In this document: positions 56,880 to 64,000 of the stretch, piece after piece
Layout of the letters: each line of letters opens with the position of its first letter
Numbering within the stretch: the first letter of the stretch is position 1
Source: Rhodospirillales bacterium
GTDB lineage: Bacteria; Pseudomonadota; Alphaproteobacteria; Rhodospirillales; JANQFP01
Reading direction: 5' to 3'
Assembly (NCBI GenBank): GCA_028277795.1
Contig: JANQFP010000166.1
Location: forward strand, 1 to 64,000
Length of the DNA: 64,000 nucleotides
Position numbers and translations under genes: made by a program
The notes under the pieces: generated by a model
The model's input: only the letters and a program-made list of their open reading frames with translations
The model's database searches: none
What the model was told of the DNA's origin: nothing

Positions 56880-57449
56880 TTACGACTCCGGGGCGGCGGG
56901 CAGAACCGCCTCGACCGCCCGGCGCAGGCGGTCGGAGTTCGGAGACGTGGTGGTGGAGAACCAGTCCACCAGCCGGCCGTCGGGCGCCATCAGATACTTG
57001 TGGAAGTTCCAGCGGGGTTTGGCCAGCATCCCCAGCTCCTTGGCCGCCCAGCGGTAGAATGGATGGGCCTGGGCCCCGCGCACGTGCTCCTTGGTGGTCA
57101 GCGGGAAATCGACGTTGAAGTTGACCTCGCAGAACTCCTTGATCTGTTCCGCGCTGCCCGGCTCCTGGCCGCCGAAGTCGTTGGACGGCACGCCGAGCAC
57201 AATTAGACCACGGTCCCGATAACGCTCCCACAAGGCCTGCAGGCCCTCGTACTGCTTGGTGAAGCCGCAGAAGGAGGCGGTGTTGACCACCAGCACGGCC
57301 TTGCCGCGGAACGCTGACAGGGGCAGCGAGCCACCGTCGATGGACGTGAAGCTGAAGGCGTGCGCGTCGGTCGCCCCGACCGCCGCGGTCGGGTTGGCCA
57401 GGGCCGCTGCCGTCACGGCCACCGCCAGGCCTTTCGCGAGTCCGGGCAT
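56880..57449 (-). CDS. gpx: Glutathione-peroxidase-family protein, exported
   Basis: 189-residue thioredoxin-fold peroxidase. The peroxidatic Cys61 lies in NTASFCGFTKQYEGL, with the FGGQEPG and RWNFHKYL blocks completing the Cys-Gln-Trp-Asn site. The ATG at 57449 begins a signal peptide, so it should act in the periplasm on lipid or organic peroxides. It follows a Met-rich micro-ORF and a TGATCC-type ECF promoter candidate; a glutathione peroxidase is also in the Rhodobacter RpoE singlet-oxygen regulon. Confidence 0.9.
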   Translation of the reverse strand: MPGLAKGLAVAVTAAALANPTAAVGATDAHAFSFTSIDGGSLPLSAFRGKAVLVVNTASFCGFTKQYEGLQALWERYRDRGLIVLGVPSNDFGGQEPGSAEQIKEFCEVNFNVDFPLTTKEHVRGAQAHPFYRWAAKELGMLAKPRWNFHKYLMAPDGRLVDWFSTTTSPNSDRLRRAVEAVLPAAPES

Positions 57450-57469
57450 GTCTGTCTCCCAGCCACCGG

Positions 57470-57583
57470 TCACGTGGTCATGCTGGCGACCATCTGCAAC
57501 ATCAACATGGTCGCCATCGTCATGAGCAAGACAGTGGTTGGGGTTCCAGGCGCCAACGATCGGGTACGGATGCGCGCGTTCAT
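57470..57583 (-). CDS. Met-rich micro-ORF (37 aa), putative small membrane peptide
   Basis: A 37-residue frame: a basic head (NARIRTRS) and a hydrophobic Met-rich helix (TVLLMTMATMLMLQMVASMT) with six Met in about 15 residues. An AAGAGG site lies 8 bases before the ATG. It sits between a candidate ECF-type promoter (57647-57618) and gpx, 20 bases upstream of gpx. No homologue is known to me; Met oxidation-sensing is an attractive but unproven idea. Confidence 0.45.
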   Translation of the reverse strand: MNARIRTRSLAPGTPTTVLLMTMATMLMLQMVASMTT

Positions 57584-57617: not shown

Positions 57618-57647
57618 TGGTTACGAGGGATGCGGGCCATCGGATCA
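57618..57647 (-). promoter_or_regulatory. ECF-sigma (RpoE-type) promoter candidate for micro-ORF/gpx
   Basis: TGATCC (57647-57642), 18-base spacer, TAACCA (57623-57618) on the minus strand. Spacing and -35 box resemble the RpoE-ChrR promoters of Rhodobacter and mirror the divergent element at 57675-57704. Confidence 0.6.
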
Positions 57648-57674
57648 CCGGGAATGAGCAGTCTGACGGTGGCG

Positions 57675-57704
57675 TGATCCGGTGGACGGGAAACCACGTA
57701 AGCC
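57675..57704 (+). promoter_or_regulatory. ECF-sigma (RpoE-type) promoter candidate for the DUF6134-SDR operon
   Basis: TGATCC (57675-57680), 18-base spacer, TAAGCC (57699-57704). The ATG of the next gene is at 57713, so the message would have almost no leader. Confidence 0.65.
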
Positions 57705-57712
57705 TCCATGTG

Positions 57713-58408
57713 ATGACCATTCACGCCATCAAGTCCCGCGCCCCCGCCGCCATCCTGTTCGGACTGTTGACCGCAGCGGCGCCCGCCGCGGCGGACATCG
57801 ACCCGGTGGCGCTCTACGGCGGCGACCTCCAATTCGACGTGCTGCGCAACGGCGACGTCGTCGGCGAGCACAACGTTCAGTTCGCGCTCTCCGGCCGGGA
57901 CCTCACGGTGGACGCCCGTTTCGAACTGGAGATCCGGATCCTGTTCTTCCCGGCGTACCGGTACGCCTACCAGTCCACGTCCGTGTGGCGGGACGGCCGG
58001 CTGGTCCGGCTCGATGCCCTGACAGATGATGACGGTTCGGTATCGGAAGTCGCCGCCCGTGCGGAGGACGGACGGGTGCGCATCCGTGGACGGGACGGCA
58101 CCGAATGGGGCGATCCCTCGCTCATCCCCACGGACCATTGGAACGCCGACGTGCTGGGGTCCGATACCGTTCTCAACACCATCACCGGGGAGGTCAGCCG
58201 GGTGTCCATCCGCGACATGGGCGAGGAGACCCTGCCCACTGCCACGGGCACCTGCCAGGCCCGGCGCTATGCGTACAGCGGAGACCTGGAGACCGAGGTC
58301 TGGTACGACCCCGACGGCCGTTGGGTGGGTATGCGGTTCCAGGGCAAGGACGGATCGACCATCGACTACCGGTGTCGGCGCTGCGGGCCCGTGTGCGGAG
58401 AAGGCTGA
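57713..58408 (+). CDS. DUF6134-like exported protein
   Basis: 231-residue protein with signal peptide (AAILFGLLTAAAPAAA) and a beta-rich body containing YGGDLQFDVLRNGDVVGEHN and a C-terminal Cys cluster (YRCRRCGPVCGEG). I place it in the DUF6134 group from its general form; function is unknown. The ATG at 57713 follows the TGATCC-N18-TAAGCC promoter by 8 bases, and there is no clear ribosome-binding site. It is followed by an SDR gene after 6 bases. Confidence 0.65.
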   Translation: MTIHAIKSRAPAAILFGLLTAAAPAAADIDPVALYGGDLQFDVLRNGDVVGEHNVQFALSGRDLTVDARFELEIRILFFPAYRYAYQSTSVWRDGRLVRLDALTDDDGSVSEVAARAEDGRVRIRGRDGTEWGDPSLIPTDHWNADVLGSDTVLNTITGEVSRVSIRDMGEETLPTATGTCQARRYAYSGDLETEVWYDPDGRWVGMRFQGKDGSTIDYRCRRCGPVCGEG

Positions 58409-58414
58409 CCGGCC

Positions 58415-59176
58415 GTGACGCGCAACGTGTGGATTACCGGCGCCGGCAAGGGCATCGGCCGCGCCCTCGCCCTGAAATACGCGCAGGACGGCGCAACGGT
58501 GGCGGCCAGCGCGCGGACGACCGCGGACCTGGAAAGCCTGGCCGTAGACGCGGCGGCGCTGTCCGGCCGTATCGTCGCCGCGCCCCTCGACGTGACCGAC
58601 GAGGCGGCGACAGGGCGGACGTTCGCCGATCTGGAGACGAAGCTGGGTCCTTTTGACCTGGTGGTGCTCAATGCCGGCACCCATGTGCCGACCCCCGCCG
58701 CGGCATTCGACACGTCGGTGGTGCGTCGTCTGGTGGAGGTCAACCTGATGGGGGCCGTGCATGGCCTGGCCGCAGTGATGCCCGCCTTCATGGCGCGACG
58801 ACGCGGCCACATCGCCGTCGTGGCGTCGGTCGCCGGCTACCGCGGGCTGCCTACGGCCGCCGCCTACGGCGCCACCAAGGCGGGCCTTATCGCCCTGTGC
58901 GAATCCCTGCGGCCGGAACTGAAGAGTGCCGGCGTCAACCTCAGCCTCATCAATCCCGGATTCGTGAAGACGCCGCTGACCAACCGCAACCCCTTTCCCA
59001 TGCCCTTTCTGATGCCCGTCGACGCCGCGGCCGAACGCATCGTGCGAGGTCTCGAGCAAGGCCGGTTCGAGATCACCTTTCCCCGCCGTTTCACCTGGGG
59101 TCTGAAGCTGCTGCGGTGCCTGCCCTACGCCCTGTTCTTCTCGATCACGGCGCGGATGCAGGGCCGGCCCGACTGA
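58415..59176 (+). CDS. Short-chain dehydrogenase/reductase
   Basis: 253-residue classical SDR. Cofactor motif TGAGKGIG near the N-terminus, NAG in VLNAGTHVP, catalytic Ser/Tyr/Lys in VASVAGYRGLPTAAAYGATKAG. Substrate unknown. Start GTG at 58415, 6 bases after the DUF6134 stop. An SDR occurs in the Rhodobacter RpoE-dependent lipid cluster together with the same neighbours as here (DUF3833, MFS, Cfa, DUF1365). Confidence 0.88.
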   Translation: MTRNVWITGAGKGIGRALALKYAQDGATVAASARTTADLESLAVDAAALSGRIVAAPLDVTDEAATGRTFADLETKLGPFDLVVLNAGTHVPTPAAAFDTSVVRRLVEVNLMGAVHGLAAVMPAFMARRRGHIAVVASVAGYRGLPTAAAYGATKAGLIALCESLRPELKSAGVNLSLINPGFVKTPLTNRNPFPMPFLMPVDAAAERIVRGLEQGRFEITFPRRFTWGLKLLRCLPYALFFSITARMQGRPD

Positions 59177-59179
59177 GCG

Positions 59180-59752
59180 CTATTCCGCGGCGACCTGTGG
59201 GGCGTCCGCAGCACCGACCTGCTGGTCCTCCGCCTTCATGAAGGCCAGCGTGACGGCGCCGATCTCGATGCCCCAGCGGCTGACGTAGGCCCGATTGATC
59301 AGGACCCCGTCCGGCTGCAGGAACATCCAGTCGTCGAACCGCACCCGCCACTGGCCGTCGCCGACCTTGAGGTCCATCTCGTAGCGCCAGTTCAGCGTGT
59401 TTCCGAACACCTGGCCACGGGCCGTCCCGATGATGCCGTTGGCCCGCCCTTCATAGGTATGATCGTCCAGCTTGGTGATGGTCCACACGCGGTGCTCGGT
59501 CTCGCCATCCCGGTAATAGAAGGACTCGTCCAAGGTCAGGACGTTGCCGTCCACGGTGCCGACGATGTCGACGGTGAACTGCCGGCGCAGGTTGCCGAAC
59601 CGATCCTCGAAGATGCCCCAGGCCCGGGTCTTGCCGGCGAAGTACGATTCCAGGGCGAACTGTGGCTCACTGCCGGCGAATTGTTCGACTTTCATGTCCG
59701 TGCATCCCGTTAAGACTATGACCAGCGCGGTGACAGTCAGTCTCTTGCCCAT
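59180..59752 (-). CDS. DUF3833 lipoprotein
   Basis: 190-residue protein with a lipobox (VIVLTGCTDM), so lipid-anchored. Body with GRANGIIGTARGQVFGNTLNWRYEMDL, typical of DUF3833. Its ATG shares one base with the stop of the upstream MFS gene. Function unknown; it is a regular member of this Cfa/DUF1365 cluster. Confidence 0.85.
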   Translation of the reverse strand: MGKRLTVTALVIVLTGCTDMKVEQFAGSEPQFALESYFAGKTRAWGIFEDRFGNLRRQFTVDIVGTVDGNVLTLDESFYYRDGETEHRVWTITKLDDHTYEGRANGIIGTARGQVFGNTLNWRYEMDLKVGDGQWRVRFDDWMFLQPDGVLINRAYVSRWGIEIGAVTLAFMKAEDQQVGAADAPQVAAE

Positions 59753-61104
59753 CAGAAACGGCTTCCGGCTGCGACGCGTGACGCCAGGGTCTCGAGGCGG
59801 CGACGGATGATCTGCTGGCGCCTCAGCGTGATCGGATGGTGCCAGACCAGGACCACCGCCCCTGCCTTGAGTACGACCGGCACCAGCGCGTAGATCACCG
59901 CCAGAACGAAAACCACCTCGGGCGGGTTGCCCCCGGCAGGGTCGAGACCCGCCGCATCGACCAGGGGAAACGCCAGGCCCACCGCGCAGGCCAGCGCCAG
60001 CTTGGTGGTCATGCTCCACAGGGCGAAGAACATGCCCGCCCGCCGCCGCCCCGAGCGCAGGGAATCGAGATCGACCACGTCGGCCTGCATGGCGGGCGGC
60101 AGCGCCAGGTCGGCACCCAGGGCCATCCCCGTGACCACGCAGACCAGGAAGAAGGCTGCGATATGGCCGGCCGGGATCCATGGCACCCAGACGAAGGCGG
60201 CGCACGCCAGGGCCATGGCGACGCACCAGGCGCGATGCTTGCCCAAGCGCCGGCTCAGCCGCAGCCACACCGGAATGGCCAGCACGCCGCACAGAAAATA
60301 GGTGAAGATCAGGATGCCGCGCTGCTCCTCCGATGCCTCCAGACCGTGCTCCAGGTAGAGCGGGAACAGCACCGCCGGAAAGCCGTTGGCCAAGCCGTTG
60401 ACGAACCAGGCGGCGATCAGGCGCACGAACGGCCGGTTGTCGAACATGGCCCGCAGGGCACGTCCGGGCCGGGCCGGCTGCGGGTCCGCGGCGGCGGCCG
60501 GCACGTCCGGCACCCGCCACAGCAGCAACGCGACGGCCGGCGCCCCGAGACCGATGGCCATCCACGACACAAGGGTGAGGGCGTCGCGCTCGCTGACACC
60601 GTACGCGGCGGCCCCGACCGGGACCGCGCCCGCCGCCAGGATGCCGAGCAACATGGCCCCCTCGCGGCCGCCGGTGAGCAGGGTCCGTTCGTGGTAGTCC
60701 CGCGACAGCTCCGCGCCCCATGCGAAGTACGGGATGGCAACGAAGGTCCAGCCGACGAACAGCACCGCCGCCCAGATCAGCAGATACGGCCCGCCGGCAT
60801 CGGCGGGCGGGTCGAACAGCCGGACCAGGGCTGCGGCGGCGAGCACCGAGCCGCCGAGGATCCACGGCTTGCGGCGCCCCCAGGTGGCGCGGAAGCGGTC
60901 GCTGACGTAGCCGGCCAGCGGATCGCTGACCACGTCGACGATCCGGGCCGCCAACAGGAGGGTCCCGGTGGCCGTGAGACCGATGGCGCCGGCATACAGG
61001 GTCGGCAGGTACACGTAGGCGGGAATGGTCGGCATCGCCAAGGCGAAGCCGGGCAGAGCATAGAAGACGATTGTGGCTCGGGGCAGCGGCCCGGGACCGG
61101 CCAC
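59752..61104 (-). CDS. GPH-family MFS transporter
   Basis: 450-residue twelve-helix transporter of the glycoside-pentoside-hexuronide:cation symporter type, with the family loop DPLAGYVSDRFRATWGRRKPW. Substrate not evident; in this lipid-modification context it may move a lipid or precursor rather than a sugar. Only 3 bases separate it from the Cfa gene. Confidence 0.85.
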   Translation of the reverse strand: MAGPGPLPRATIVFYALPGFALAMPTIPAYVYLPTLYAGAIGLTATGTLLLAARIVDVVSDPLAGYVSDRFRATWGRRKPWILGGSVLAAAALVRLFDPPADAGGPYLLIWAAVLFVGWTFVAIPYFAWGAELSRDYHERTLLTGGREGAMLLGILAAGAVPVGAAAYGVSERDALTLVSWMAIGLGAPAVALLLWRVPDVPAAAADPQPARPGRALRAMFDNRPFVRLIAAWFVNGLANGFPAVLFPLYLEHGLEASEEQRGILIFTYFLCGVLAIPVWLRLSRRLGKHRAWCVAMALACAAFVWVPWIPAGHIAAFFLVCVVTGMALGADLALPPAMQADVVDLDSLRSGRRRAGMFFALWSMTTKLALACAVGLAFPLVDAAGLDPAGGNPPEVVFVLAVIYALVPVVLKAGAVVLVWHHPITLRRQQIIRRRLETLASRVAAGSRF

Positions 61105-61107
61105 GGC

Positions 61108-62355
61108 TCACCACCCTTCGATGCGGAAGTGTCCGACGTCGATGGTCCCGGCCCGGAATCCCGCCTCGCAGTACGCCAGGTAGTATTCCCACATGCGCCG
61201 GAAGCGGGCATCGAAGCCCTGCGCCGCGATGTCGGGCCAGGCACGCTGGAACCTCTGGGACCAAAGGCTCAGGGTGCGGGCATAGGAGGGGCCGAAGAAC
61301 CGGGTTTCGGTCAGGTGCAGGCCGGCGCGCCGGATCTCGTCGGCCAGGCGGGCCGGCGACGGCAGCATGCCGCCGGGAAAGATGTAGCGCTGAATGAAGT
61401 CCGCGCCGCCCCGGTAGCTCTCGAACCGATCGTCGGCGATGGTGATGATCTGCAGCGCGGCCGTGCCGCCGGGCGCCAGGCGATCGCGCAGCGACCGGAA
61501 GAACACGGGCCAATGGCTTTCCCCGACCGCCTCGAACATCTCGATGGATGCGATGCGGTCGAAGCGGCCCTCGACGTCCCGGTAGTCCTGGAGCCTGATC
61601 TCGACGCGATCGCCGAGGCCGGCATCGAAGATGCGCTTACGGGCGTGGTCGAACTGCTCCCGGGACACGGTCACCGCCGTCACCCGGCATTGGCATTCCT
61701 TGACCGCGAACTCCGCGAAGCCGCCCCAGCCGCACCCGATCTCCAGCACGTGGTGTCCGGGCCCCAGATCAAGGAGCCGGGCCAGCTGGCGATACTTGGC
61801 GGCCTGGGCCTGCTCCAGATCGAGAGCCGGTGTCTCGAACAGGGCGGACGAATAGGTCAGTCCCTCGTCCAGCCACGCCGCGAAGAAGGCGTTTCCAAGG
61901 TCGTAGTGCCGGGCGATGTTGCGCCGGCTGCCGCGGCGGGTGTTGGGCCGCAGCACGTGCCGCAGGCGGTGCGCGAGCCGCGCCGCCCGCAGACCCGGCG
62001 GGCACCGCGACGACCCTTCGTCGTTGAAGGCGGCAAGCTCGATGAGGGACGTCAGGTCAGGGCTGGTCCAGTCCCCGTCAATGTAGGCCTCGGCGAAACC
62101 GACCGAGCCGCCCAGGACCAGGCGGCGAAAGGCGCGCGGCCGGATGACGTTGAGAACGGCCTGCGGTCCCCCGGCGAGGCGACCGTCGAAATGCCGGGTC
62201 GTGCCATCGGGCAATACCAGGGTAAGGCGGCCGATCTGCAGCGCCTCGAGCCACGCCATGACGACGCGGGTCCAAAGATCGCCGGACCGCGGCCGATCCG
62301 CGGCCGGCGAAAGCGCAGGCGTCACCTGGCCGAAAAGCTCGTTGTCTCGAGGCAT
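61108..62355 (-). CDS. Cyclopropane/methyl fatty-acyl-phospholipid synthase
   Basis: 415-residue SAM-dependent enzyme of the Cfa family, acting on unsaturated acyl chains in phospholipids. Motifs: NIARHYDLGNAFFAAWLDEG, SAM loop VLEIGCGWGGFAEFAVKE, and FFRSLRDRLAPGGTAALQ. Related proteins either make cyclopropane acids or, in the furan-fatty-acid route of Rhodobacter, methylate vaccenoyl chains. Context (DUF1365, FAD amine-oxidase-like, SDR) allows the latter. Confidence 0.9.
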   Translation of the reverse strand: MPRDNELFGQVTPALSPAADRPRSGDLWTRVVMAWLEALQIGRLTLVLPDGTTRHFDGRLAGGPQAVLNVIRPRAFRRLVLGGSVGFAEAYIDGDWTSPDLTSLIELAAFNDEGSSRCPPGLRAARLAHRLRHVLRPNTRRGSRRNIARHYDLGNAFFAAWLDEGLTYSSALFETPALDLEQAQAAKYRQLARLLDLGPGHHVLEIGCGWGGFAEFAVKECQCRVTAVTVSREQFDHARKRIFDAGLGDRVEIRLQDYRDVEGRFDRIASIEMFEAVGESHWPVFFRSLRDRLAPGGTAALQIITIADDRFESYRGGADFIQRYIFPGGMLPSPARLADEIRRAGLHLTETRFFGPSYARTLSLWSQRFQRAWPDIAAQGFDARFRRMWEYYLAYCEAGFRAGTIDVGHFRIEGW

Positions 62356-62371: not shown

Positions 62372-63160
62372 TCAGCGGGATTCGACGGTCGCCACGGTGG
62401 TGACGGGCTCCACCGGCGGCGCCGGGCGGCGATGAAGGGGGACGCCTTTGCGCCACAGCCGCAACGCCTCCCAGTGGATGCCGGCGATGACCTTCAGGGT
62501 CATCAATGGGTAGCCGACGAAGGCCTGGCGGAGCGACCGGCCGGTCAATCGGTGGCGCCGGGCGACGAAGGAGGCGTGGAGGAGCGCCCCATCATCGTCC
62601 GACTGCCGGATGACCACGGCGAGGCGATCGCCCGGCGGCACGATGCTGAAATCGTAGCGCGCGTCCATGGCGATGAACGGCGAGACGTAAAGGGCCTTGC
62701 GGCACGCCTGGCGGATGGGGCCCGGGCCATCGCCCTGCGCCGGGATCAGGTAGGTGTGACGCTCGCCGAAGGTGTTGCTGACCTCGTACAGGATCGCCGC
62801 CAGGGCGCCGTCCGGCCGGTGACAGAAATAGACGCTGAGGGGATTGAAGACGTACCCCAGGATCCGAGGATAGCAGAGCAACCGAATGGCGCCGCCGTCG
62901 AGATCGATGCCGGCGGCGGCGAGGTGCCGCTCGACCCACGGACGCAACGGCGACCCGTCGCCCGGACCGTGATCCGAGTCCCGGAAGCTGAACAGGTTGA
63001 AGCGGTTATGGGAGAACGCGGGCAGCACGGCATGGAGCCTGGCGAGCTCGTCGAGATCGATGAGCATGGCGAAGACACGGTAACGGAGATCGTGGCGCCG
63101 GGGCCGGAGCCGCCGATGCACGACGGTGCCGTGGTAAAGGGCGGAGGCGAAGGCGGTCAT
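62372..63160 (-). CDS. DUF1365 family protein
   Basis: 262 residues beginning TAFASALYHGTVVHRRLRPR, the family opening, with LGYVFNPLSVYFCHRPDGAL and FIAMDARYDFSIVPPGDRL in the middle. Function unknown; nearly always encoded between a FAD amine-oxidase-like gene and a Cfa gene, as here. The ATG overlaps the upstream stop (ATGA). Confidence 0.88.
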   Translation of the reverse strand: MTAFASALYHGTVVHRRLRPRRHDLRYRVFAMLIDLDELARLHAVLPAFSHNRFNLFSFRDSDHGPGDGSPLRPWVERHLAAAGIDLDGGAIRLLCYPRILGYVFNPLSVYFCHRPDGALAAILYEVSNTFGERHTYLIPAQGDGPGPIRQACRKALYVSPFIAMDARYDFSIVPPGDRLAVVIRQSDDDGALLHASFVARRHRLTGRSLRQAFVGYPLMTLKVIAGIHWEALRLWRKGVPLHRRPAPPVEPVTTVATVESR

Positions 63161-64000
63161 GCGGCGGCGGCCTCGCCGACGGCCATGCGCACGATGCGGC
63201 CCGACTCGTCGTCCACCGACCAGGGCCGGCGCACGCCGCCCAGGTCTTCCGCCACCGCCAGCCCGGCCTGGAGACCGTCCTCGTGGAATCCGGCGCCGAA
63301 GTAGCATCCGCAGTACCAGGTGTTGCGCCTGCCCTGCAGGCTCCAGAGGTGCCGCTGGGCGCGCACCGTCCGGCAGTCGAACAGCGGATGTTCGTAGGTG
63401 AACGTCTGGATGGTCTTGTGGGACCGGGGCGGGTAGAGGGGGTTGAGGGTGACGAACAACGGGCTCTCGGGCGCCAGCCCCTGCAAGCGGTTCATCCAGT
63501 AGGTCACGTGGGCGGCCGGCGCCTTGGCCGCGCCCGCCCGCCGCCCTTCGACGTAGTTCCAGCTCGCCCACACCTCGGGCCGACGCGGCATGAGCTGCTG
63601 GTCGCTGTGCAAGACGGCGACATTGGACCGATAGCGGAACACCCTGAGGAGCCGCCGCTCGTCGTCTGTCGGATCGTCGAGCAACGCCAGCGCCTGGTCG
63701 GCGTGGGTCGCCACGACCACGTGATCGAACCGGTGCGACACGCCCTCATCGTCGATCACGGTCACCAGGCCGGGGGCCCGGGAGATGGTCCGCGCCCCGG
63801 TTCCCAGTCGGATGCGGTCGGCATAGCGGGCAGTGAGGCGGCGCACGTACTCCCGGCTGCCGCCGGTCACGGTCCTCCACGCCGGGCGACCGCTCAGCCT
63901 CAGCAGCCCGTGGTTGTCGAAGAACCGGATGAAGGCCGCGGCCGGATAGGCGCGCACCTGCTCGGCCTTGGTCGACCAGATGGCAGCGGCCATGGGCAGC
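63157..64000 (-). CDS. FAD-dependent amine-oxidase/desaturase-like protein (5' end outside window)
   Basis: The visible 280 residues are the C-terminal part of a COG2907-type NAD(P)/FAD-binding protein; the frame is still open at base 64000, so the FAD-binding N-terminus is missing. Family blocks: YVRRLTARYADRIRLGTGAR, FDHVVVATHADQALALLDDP and NTWYCGCYFGAGFHEDGLQ. A protein of this type is proposed to desaturate methylated acyl chains in furan fatty-acid synthesis. First visible gene of the minus-strand lipid operon. Confidence 0.85.
   Translation of the reverse strand, partial: LPMAAAIWSTKAEQVRAYPAAAFIRFFDNHGLLRLSGRPAWRTVTGGSREYVRRLTARYADRIRLGTGARTISRAPGLVTVIDDEGVSHRFDHVVVATHADQALALLDDPTDDERRLLRVFRYRSNVAVLHSDQQLMPRRPEVWASWNYVEGRRAGAAKAPAAHVTYWMNRLQGLAPESPLFVTLNPLYPPRSHKTIQTFTYEHPLFDCRTVRAQRHLWSLQGRRNTWYCGCYFGAGFHEDGLQAGLAVAEDLGGVRRPWSVDDESGRIVRMAVGEAAAA

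Follow-up and report, generated by a model that had tools for sequence, protein, structure and literature searches.

In Rhodobacter sphaeroides, the ECF11 sigma factor RpoE (σE) and the anti-sigma factor ChrR are accompanied by a linked operon, RSP1091-1087, which encodes UfaD, UfaO, a 402-amino-acid symporter, a 186-amino-acid protein and a short-chain dehydrogenase (SDR), as described in the available extracts of the papers concerned (PMC7380195, PMC7074977, PMC5507510). UfaD (RSP1091) and UfaO (RSP1090), the latter containing DUF1365, make furan fatty acids with UfaM; the same extract gives single deletions of RSP1087, RSP1088 and RSP1089 as having no detectable effect on fatty acids in this organism (PMC7380195). 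In Shewanella, the RpoE2 promoters, as listed in the extract, are like the motif found here, and one of them, with a mapped start, belongs to a periplasmic glutathione peroxidase (PMC4336711). In Rhodobacter capsulatus, rpoE-chrR has the BsaA1 glutathione peroxidase operon as its neighbour, with the photosynthesis cluster close by, and homologues of RSP1087-1091 seem, from the portion of the paper available, to be absent (PMC7074977). The consensus printed for PSPTO_1043, an ECF factor of Pseudomonas syringae, reads TGATCCn16CGTA in the extract (PMC5507510).

The locus described here, from a Rhodospirillales bacterium, has the sigma/anti-sigma pair and the linked operon in common with R. sphaeroides. 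It differs in that a cfa/ufaM-like gene lies inside the operon, the SDR gene stands behind DUF6134 with a promoter of its own, a glutathione peroxidase gene (gpx) joins the set, and a predicted intragenic promoter faces DUF3833. Like the RpoE2-ChrR system of Shewanella oneidensis (pgpD-hemH2), it has a signal-peptide glutathione peroxidase behind TGATCC-N16-CGTAA, although the Shewanella gene is in an operon with hemH2; it shares the proximity of rpoE-chrR, glutathione peroxidase and photosynthesis genes with R. capsulatus but not the apparent lack of RSP1087-1091 homologues; and its sites are identical to the P. syringae consensus, whereas gene set and layout differ. We consider it very probable that ECF11 promoters under σE–ChrR control drive gpx, DUF6134–SDR, the sigma factor's own operon, the ufa-type operon and DUF3833.

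The window, that is, the whole stretch of 64,000 nucleotides that was analysed, comprises bases 1-64000 of a contig of 95,653 bases. The block begins with ubiG and gpx on the minus strand, followed by the promoter pair, DUF6134 and SDR on the plus strand, and DUF3833, MFS and the cfa/ufaM-like gene on the minus strand. It continues with the ufaO-like DUF1365 gene and the ufaD-like FAD gene, also on the minus strand, and, past the window end, a minus-strand promoter at 64782, a plus-strand promoter at 65002, and rpoE and chrR on the plus strand. The UfaD-like FAD and UfaO-like DUF1365 genes stand side by side and are so named by family only, and the gene of the CMAS family inside the operon is likewise assigned at family level, as UfaM or Cfa. 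The SDR appears to be RSP1087-like by family and neighbourhood, and from size and position RSP1088 would correspond to DUF3833. The block had been placed next to a photosynthesis cluster, and this neighbourhood is real, since PpsR, BchG and BchP score above their curated cut-offs; the TspO match falls below its own. In the order relatives that were fetched (L074-L113), MFS, DUF3833 and SDR genes are common; the extract of PMC3818230 gives their conservation as restricted to Rhodobacteraceae.

Table. Features of the block (positions in the window unless marked as contig positions)
Feature	Position	Strand	Evidence or remark
Glutathione peroxidase, gpx	56880..57449	-	Pfam GSHPx, E 6e-33 for 56880-57473
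Doubtful 37-codon ORF, gpx leader	57470..57583	-	behind AAGAGG
Predicted ECF11 (RpoE-ChrR) promoter TGATCC-N16-CGTA for gpx	57622..57647	-	exact match
Predicted ECF11 promoter TGATCC-N16-CGTA for DUF6134-SDR, facing outwards	57675..57700	+	exact match; site kept in relatives
DUF6134 protein, signal-peptide-like start	57713..58408	+	Pfam PF19630, E 4e-57
Short-chain dehydrogenase, SDR	58415..59176	+	Pfam adh_short, E 7e-48
DUF3833, probable lipoprotein (by inspection)	59180..59752	-	Pfam PF12915, E 4e-65
MFS transporter (MFS_2), host of the intragenic site	59752..61104	-	Pfam MFS_2, E 5e-82
Predicted intragenic ECF11 promoter TGATCT-N16-CGTA, 3' part of MFS coding sequence	59872-59897	-	faces DUF3833
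Cfa/UfaM-type SAM-dependent methyltransferase	61108..62355	-	Pfam CMAS, E 7e-86
DUF1365 protein, UfaO-like	62372..63160	-	Pfam PF07103, E 4e-85 for 62372-63151
FAD amine-oxidase family protein, UfaD-like	63157..64000, on to contig 64527	-	Amino_oxidase/NAD_binding_8
Predicted ufaD promoter, exact site	contig 64782-64807	-	outside window
Predicted rpoE promoter, exact site	contig 65002-65027	+	outside window

The initial annotation had read the promoters as of RpoE-ChrR type and had made this reading depend on finding the two genes in the genome. They are present on the same contig, about 1 kb beyond the window end, rpoE ending at contig 65726 and the chrR ORF (65723-66385) overlapping that end. 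RpoE found its best PDB match in 2q1z_A (RpoE, ECF SigE; E 4.5e-51), followed by SigK at E 1.5e-20. ChrR matched the NCBI model TIGR02451 at contig 65735-66379 (E 2e-63, 215 bits against a cut-off of 124.5) and, in the PDB, the ChrR chain of 2q1z/2z2s (E 3.1e-56). The metal ligands listed for ChrR in the extract of PMC6852236 are H6, H31, C35 and C38 in the zinc anti-sigma domain and H141, H143, E147 and H177 in the cupin-like domain, and all eight are aligned and identical in the ChrR of this genome. With an exact promoter of its own ahead of it, rpoE is predicted to be autoregulated. A small ORF of about 70 codons lies between the ufaD promoter and ufaD (L012, about 8742-8529, minus strand).

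Within the window, two mirror-image TGATCC-N18-TAA elements had been reported between divergent genes, and both copies are exact: TGATCCGATGGCCCGCATCCCTCGTAA at 57621-57647 on the minus strand and TGATCCGGTGGACGGGAAACCACGTAA at 57675-57701 on the plus strand, with 27 bases separating their −35 boxes. The divergent genes are likewise as described, Pfam matches placing the glutathione peroxidase on the left and DUF6134 followed by SDR on the right. In both elements the motif reads TGATCC-N16-CGTAA, which is the ECF11 form and supports the RpoE-ChrR interpretation. Chance accounts poorly for these sites: TGATCC followed by TAA at a spacer of 17-19 is expected 0.17 times in 64 kb and occurs twice (two in 1 of 100 shuffles), TGATCC-N16-CGTA is expected 0.03 times and also occurs twice (two in 0 of 100 shuffles), and within 20 kb there are five TGATCY-N16-CGTA sites against 0.02 expected. 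The reading needs two corrections. The pair itself would serve gpx and DUF6134-SDR only; DUF3833, MFS, Cfa, DUF1365 and FAD run on the opposite strand and have their predicted promoter outside the window. As to gpx, a glutathione peroxidase had, according to the available part of a 2015 paper, not yet been identified in the R. sphaeroides regulon (PMC4336711); precedents for it come from Shewanella (PgpD) and R. capsulatus (BsaA1).

Conservation of the sites was examined in relatives. A DUF6134 homologue was found in 128 of the 199 order genomes searched, and 40 loci were chosen manually among its higher-scoring matches, not all of which were taken, so that the sample is non-random. A site was counted when an exact TGATCY-N16-CGTA lay no more than 450 bases upstream on the coding strand, and genes with fewer than 150 bases upstream (one DUF1365, two Cfa) were left out. 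By this measure, a site precedes DUF6134 at 24 of 40 loci (24/35 with SDR downstream versus 0/5 without), FAD (ufaD) in 20/27 relatives, rpoE in 25/28 and DUF3833 in 26/30; the exact site is absent at 16/40 DUF6134, 7/27 FAD and 3/28 rpoE loci. None of the control genes has a site ahead (SDR 0/35, DUF1365 0/27, Cfa 0/29, MFS 0/30, ChrR 0/28), and every other spacer from 12 to 20 occurs on the coding strand at most once per gene. At the level of sequence, the motifs and the sigma/anti-sigma pair are thus established, as are the conservation and the specific placement of both. For a phototroph, this would bring glutathione peroxidase and the DUF6134 protein under the singlet-oxygen response, promoter and gene order having been retained throughout an order. 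The combination of gpx and DUF6134 at one promoter pair was seen in no other genome, either among the outward-facing pairs of 317 order genomes or at the 40 loci, and in one relative in which the two genes are divergent (L112), the DNA separating them lacks an exact site.

The third ECF11-type site in the window lies in coding and not intergenic DNA, and the DUF3833 sites of the relatives are placed in the same way. Among 31 order MFS genes (our own and those of 30 order relatives), 26 carry the exact site in their last 300 bases, compared with 0.26 expected from synonymous shuffling, and five do not; in one further order gene it lies over 300 bases away from the frame end that was used. For a wider set from the class, a DUF3833 match was obtained in 132 of 385 genomes and 69 loci were used besides our own, of which 49 have MFS upstream; one of these belongs to a genome of the order set and was removed, so that 48 remain. 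Here the site is present at 15 loci and absent from the last 300 bases at 33, with 0.16 expected, and the count may be an underestimate since some of the MFS frames overran the likely stop. In these shuffles, synonymous codons were permuted within each gene for 300 rounds, and never did more than two loci in either set gain a site. When spacers of 15-17 were allowed within 350 bases upstream of DUF3833, 18/49 class loci with MFS and 2/20 without it had a site. The site-bearing order relatives span eleven families, judging by genome labels. Presence of the site showed no significant tie to that of ChrR (15/43 versus 0/5, P 0.17).

To what extent the protein could itself impose this pattern is seen from the codons. 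In the 31 aligned MFS genes, the −10 codon is GTA at 28 of 29 valine positions, compared with 84 of 1138 valine codons overall, and among 197 columns it ranks first in codon conservation (log10 P -30.3), ahead of the −35 ATC (-7.3) and the third column (-4.5). These P values assume independent relatives, and since nine site-bearing relatives belong to one genus, the ranking outweighs the numbers. A Y-A-x-x-P-x-V segment is conserved in the MFS protein and GTA is a rare codon that could slow translation, so the site might have arisen from constraint on the protein or its codons, such as a rare-codon pause, without being a promoter. We consider this very unlikely, however, because the synonymous shuffles recover the site so rarely in either set. 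Moreover, C precedes GTA in 28/28 genes whether the codon concerned specifies Val, Ile, Thr or Ala, and TG is kept ahead of the −35 ATC across Val, Leu and Met codons, despite the changing amino acids. Spacers from 12 to 20 other than 16 are absent from the MFS ends, save for one of 17 in the class set. Furthermore, 4 of the 15 class sites sit 7 codons downstream, where a different stretch of the protein is encoded, and one class site lies at the end of the MFS gene in another frame; such changes of register point to repeated gain of the site.

From the shuffling, the codon columns, the spacer specificity and the repeated gain, we read the intragenic site as a selected promoter. The alignments leave little doubt that selection acts on its DNA, and as a σE promoter it would give DUF3833 transcripts of its own. 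It would be an unusually clean case of overlapping codes, in which one rare codon is held, so that silent substitutions would suffice to probe it. It would also mark DUF3833 as a product for which these cells may have a raised demand. In the available part of PMC7380195, deletion of RSP1088, whose size and operon position match DUF3833, left R. sphaeroides fatty acids unchanged. RSP_1088 is less induced than the upstream genes in the table of PMC7074977, as far as that source is available, so that these data give no sign of an intragenic promoter in R. sphaeroides. Among the matches listed, the papers naming RSP1088 mention no such promoter in the parts available, and the phrase 'intragenic promoter' does not occur among the matches listed in the literature search, as far as their available text goes; an earlier mention elsewhere is possible.

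A further feature concerns the start of rpoE. At 40 of 62 distinct rpoE sites, counted after removal of identical stretches, an ATG lies 8-9 nt after CGTA, and all 40 are in frame with rpoE and open. Control genes have an ATG at this distance, in any frame, at 0/47 (FAD), 5/25 (DUF6134) and 1/26 (DUF3833) sites. In our genome this ATG is at contig 65037, 9 bases past CGTA, giving a gene at 65037-65726 (L012:9037-9726). It lies 52 codons ahead of the start used for the PDB search, and from that later start the alignment to the solved chain begins at chain residue 14. An ATG at about +1 of the predicted transcription start would make the rpoE mRNA leaderless. RpoE is thus probably made from a leaderless mRNA and with an N-terminal extension, the conservation of the start position being the firmer part of this proposal. 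If true, stress-induced translation would be linked to stress-induced transcription. Among the matches listed, no publication joins the terms leaderless, ChrR and ECF sigma factor in the text available. The DUF6134 gene of our genome is itself nearly leaderless, with GTG 9 nt and ATG 12 nt after CGTA, as is not the case in most relatives.

The intragenic promoter and the rpoE start are new elements here, beyond the initial annotation, and neither layer was found in the available text of the literature examined. Overall, it seems likely that a selected intragenic σE promoter, gained more than once, uncouples DUF3833 from its operon, and that a leaderless rpoE encodes a longer N-terminus than that of the Rhodobacter chain. 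In the mechanism that we propose, the zinc anti-sigma factor ChrR, whose gene adjoins rpoE, would keep σE inactive until its own inactivation by singlet oxygen or organic peroxides sets the sigma factor free, a step that we infer by analogy, as we do the roles of the enzymes in peroxide removal and membrane lipids. Free σE would direct transcription leftward into gpx, for the removal of lipid and organic peroxides, and rightward into DUF6134-SDR. From the two promoters past the window, it would drive its own operon and the furan-fatty-acid type operon (ufaD, ufaO, cfa/ufaM-like, MFS and DUF3833). The further promoter in the 3' part of MFS would yield the separate DUF3833 transcripts, and under stress RpoE would probably be translated by the leaderless route.

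On general grounds, the large number of ECF factors and the overlap of their promoter boxes make it conceivable that the pair consists of sites for another ECF factor with a similar box, in which case the genes would be part of another stress regulon. Across the genome, TGATCC-Nk-CGTA is most frequent at k=16, with 10 matches against a same-codon-phase mean of 3.1 (Poisson P 0.0015), and k=15 reaches 9, so that the excess at spacer 16 is modest. Looser scans (TGATCY-N16-19-GTAA and TGATC-N17-19-CGTA) returned mostly background-like matches and were set aside in favour of spacer 16. Four of the ten strict sites are inside the block, and two look like chance by inspection, one in an rplO-like gene and one in a mobile-element-like region. 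Others, with distances running from the site's first base to the start codon, stand 58 bases before a PrxQ/Bcp-type peroxiredoxin gene (L116:3563-4091), 35 bases before the gene of a SOUL heme-binding protein (L118:4427-5097), where ATG follows CGTA by 9 bases as it does for rpoE, 85 bases before a PALP-family (cysteine-synthase-like) gene (L117:3043-4129) and 343 bases before hemE. The SOUL protein, the peroxiredoxin and the PALP enzyme are candidate members of the regulon. The ORF beside the SOUL site resembles, from its translation by eye, another ECF factor, in keeping with the alternative. Nevertheless, the motif agrees with that printed for factors of ECF11 type in the available extracts (PMC5507510, PMC4336711), most of the relatives fetched have the sites and rpoE-chrR in one block, and a site stands ahead of rpoE itself in 25 of 28, so we regard control by another ECF factor as very unlikely and retain σE–ChrR. 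Separately, an AhpC/TSA-family gene (L120:4053-4825) stands behind GGTA instead of CGTA and is a further candidate for the regulon.

Among 317 order genomes, 26 (our own included) have outward-facing pairs of sites separated by 14-44 bases, and in 18 of these the pair is located between FAD and rpoE; the reversed control pattern gave no match among the matches listed for the order genomes. That the half-sites are mirror images would suit the binding site of a dimeric repressor or a chance palindrome, but a gap that varies from 14 to 42 in the 26 genomes is unlike a dimer site, and with the −35 to −10 spacing fixed at 16 and single copies ahead of other genes, this explanation is highly improbable beside a pair of promoters. 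The gaps cluster at 14-18 and 27-29. Helical phasing was dropped as an explanation and is suggestive only, with Rayleigh P values of 0.16, 0.08 and 0.04 at periods of 10, 10.5 and 11, obtained against uniform gaps from 26 non-independent pairs of which two are of identical sequence (L222-L247).

By inspection, the gpx product has a signal-peptide-like N-terminus and is of the Cys type. The 37-codon ORF in the gpx leader encodes a Met-rich product (7 Met) with hydrophobic residues and one hydrophobic stretch. No homologue was found in 40 relatives at E 1e-3, and in two relatives with gpx close behind a site no in-frame start comes earlier than 25 or 34 nt past CGTA; for these reasons we rejected it as a conserved small protein. 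Two relatives of the same sequence (L226 and L232) have an outward-facing ECF11 pair with a gpx homologue (67-68% identity) nearby and, on its opposite flank, a small ORF resembling a membrane protein.
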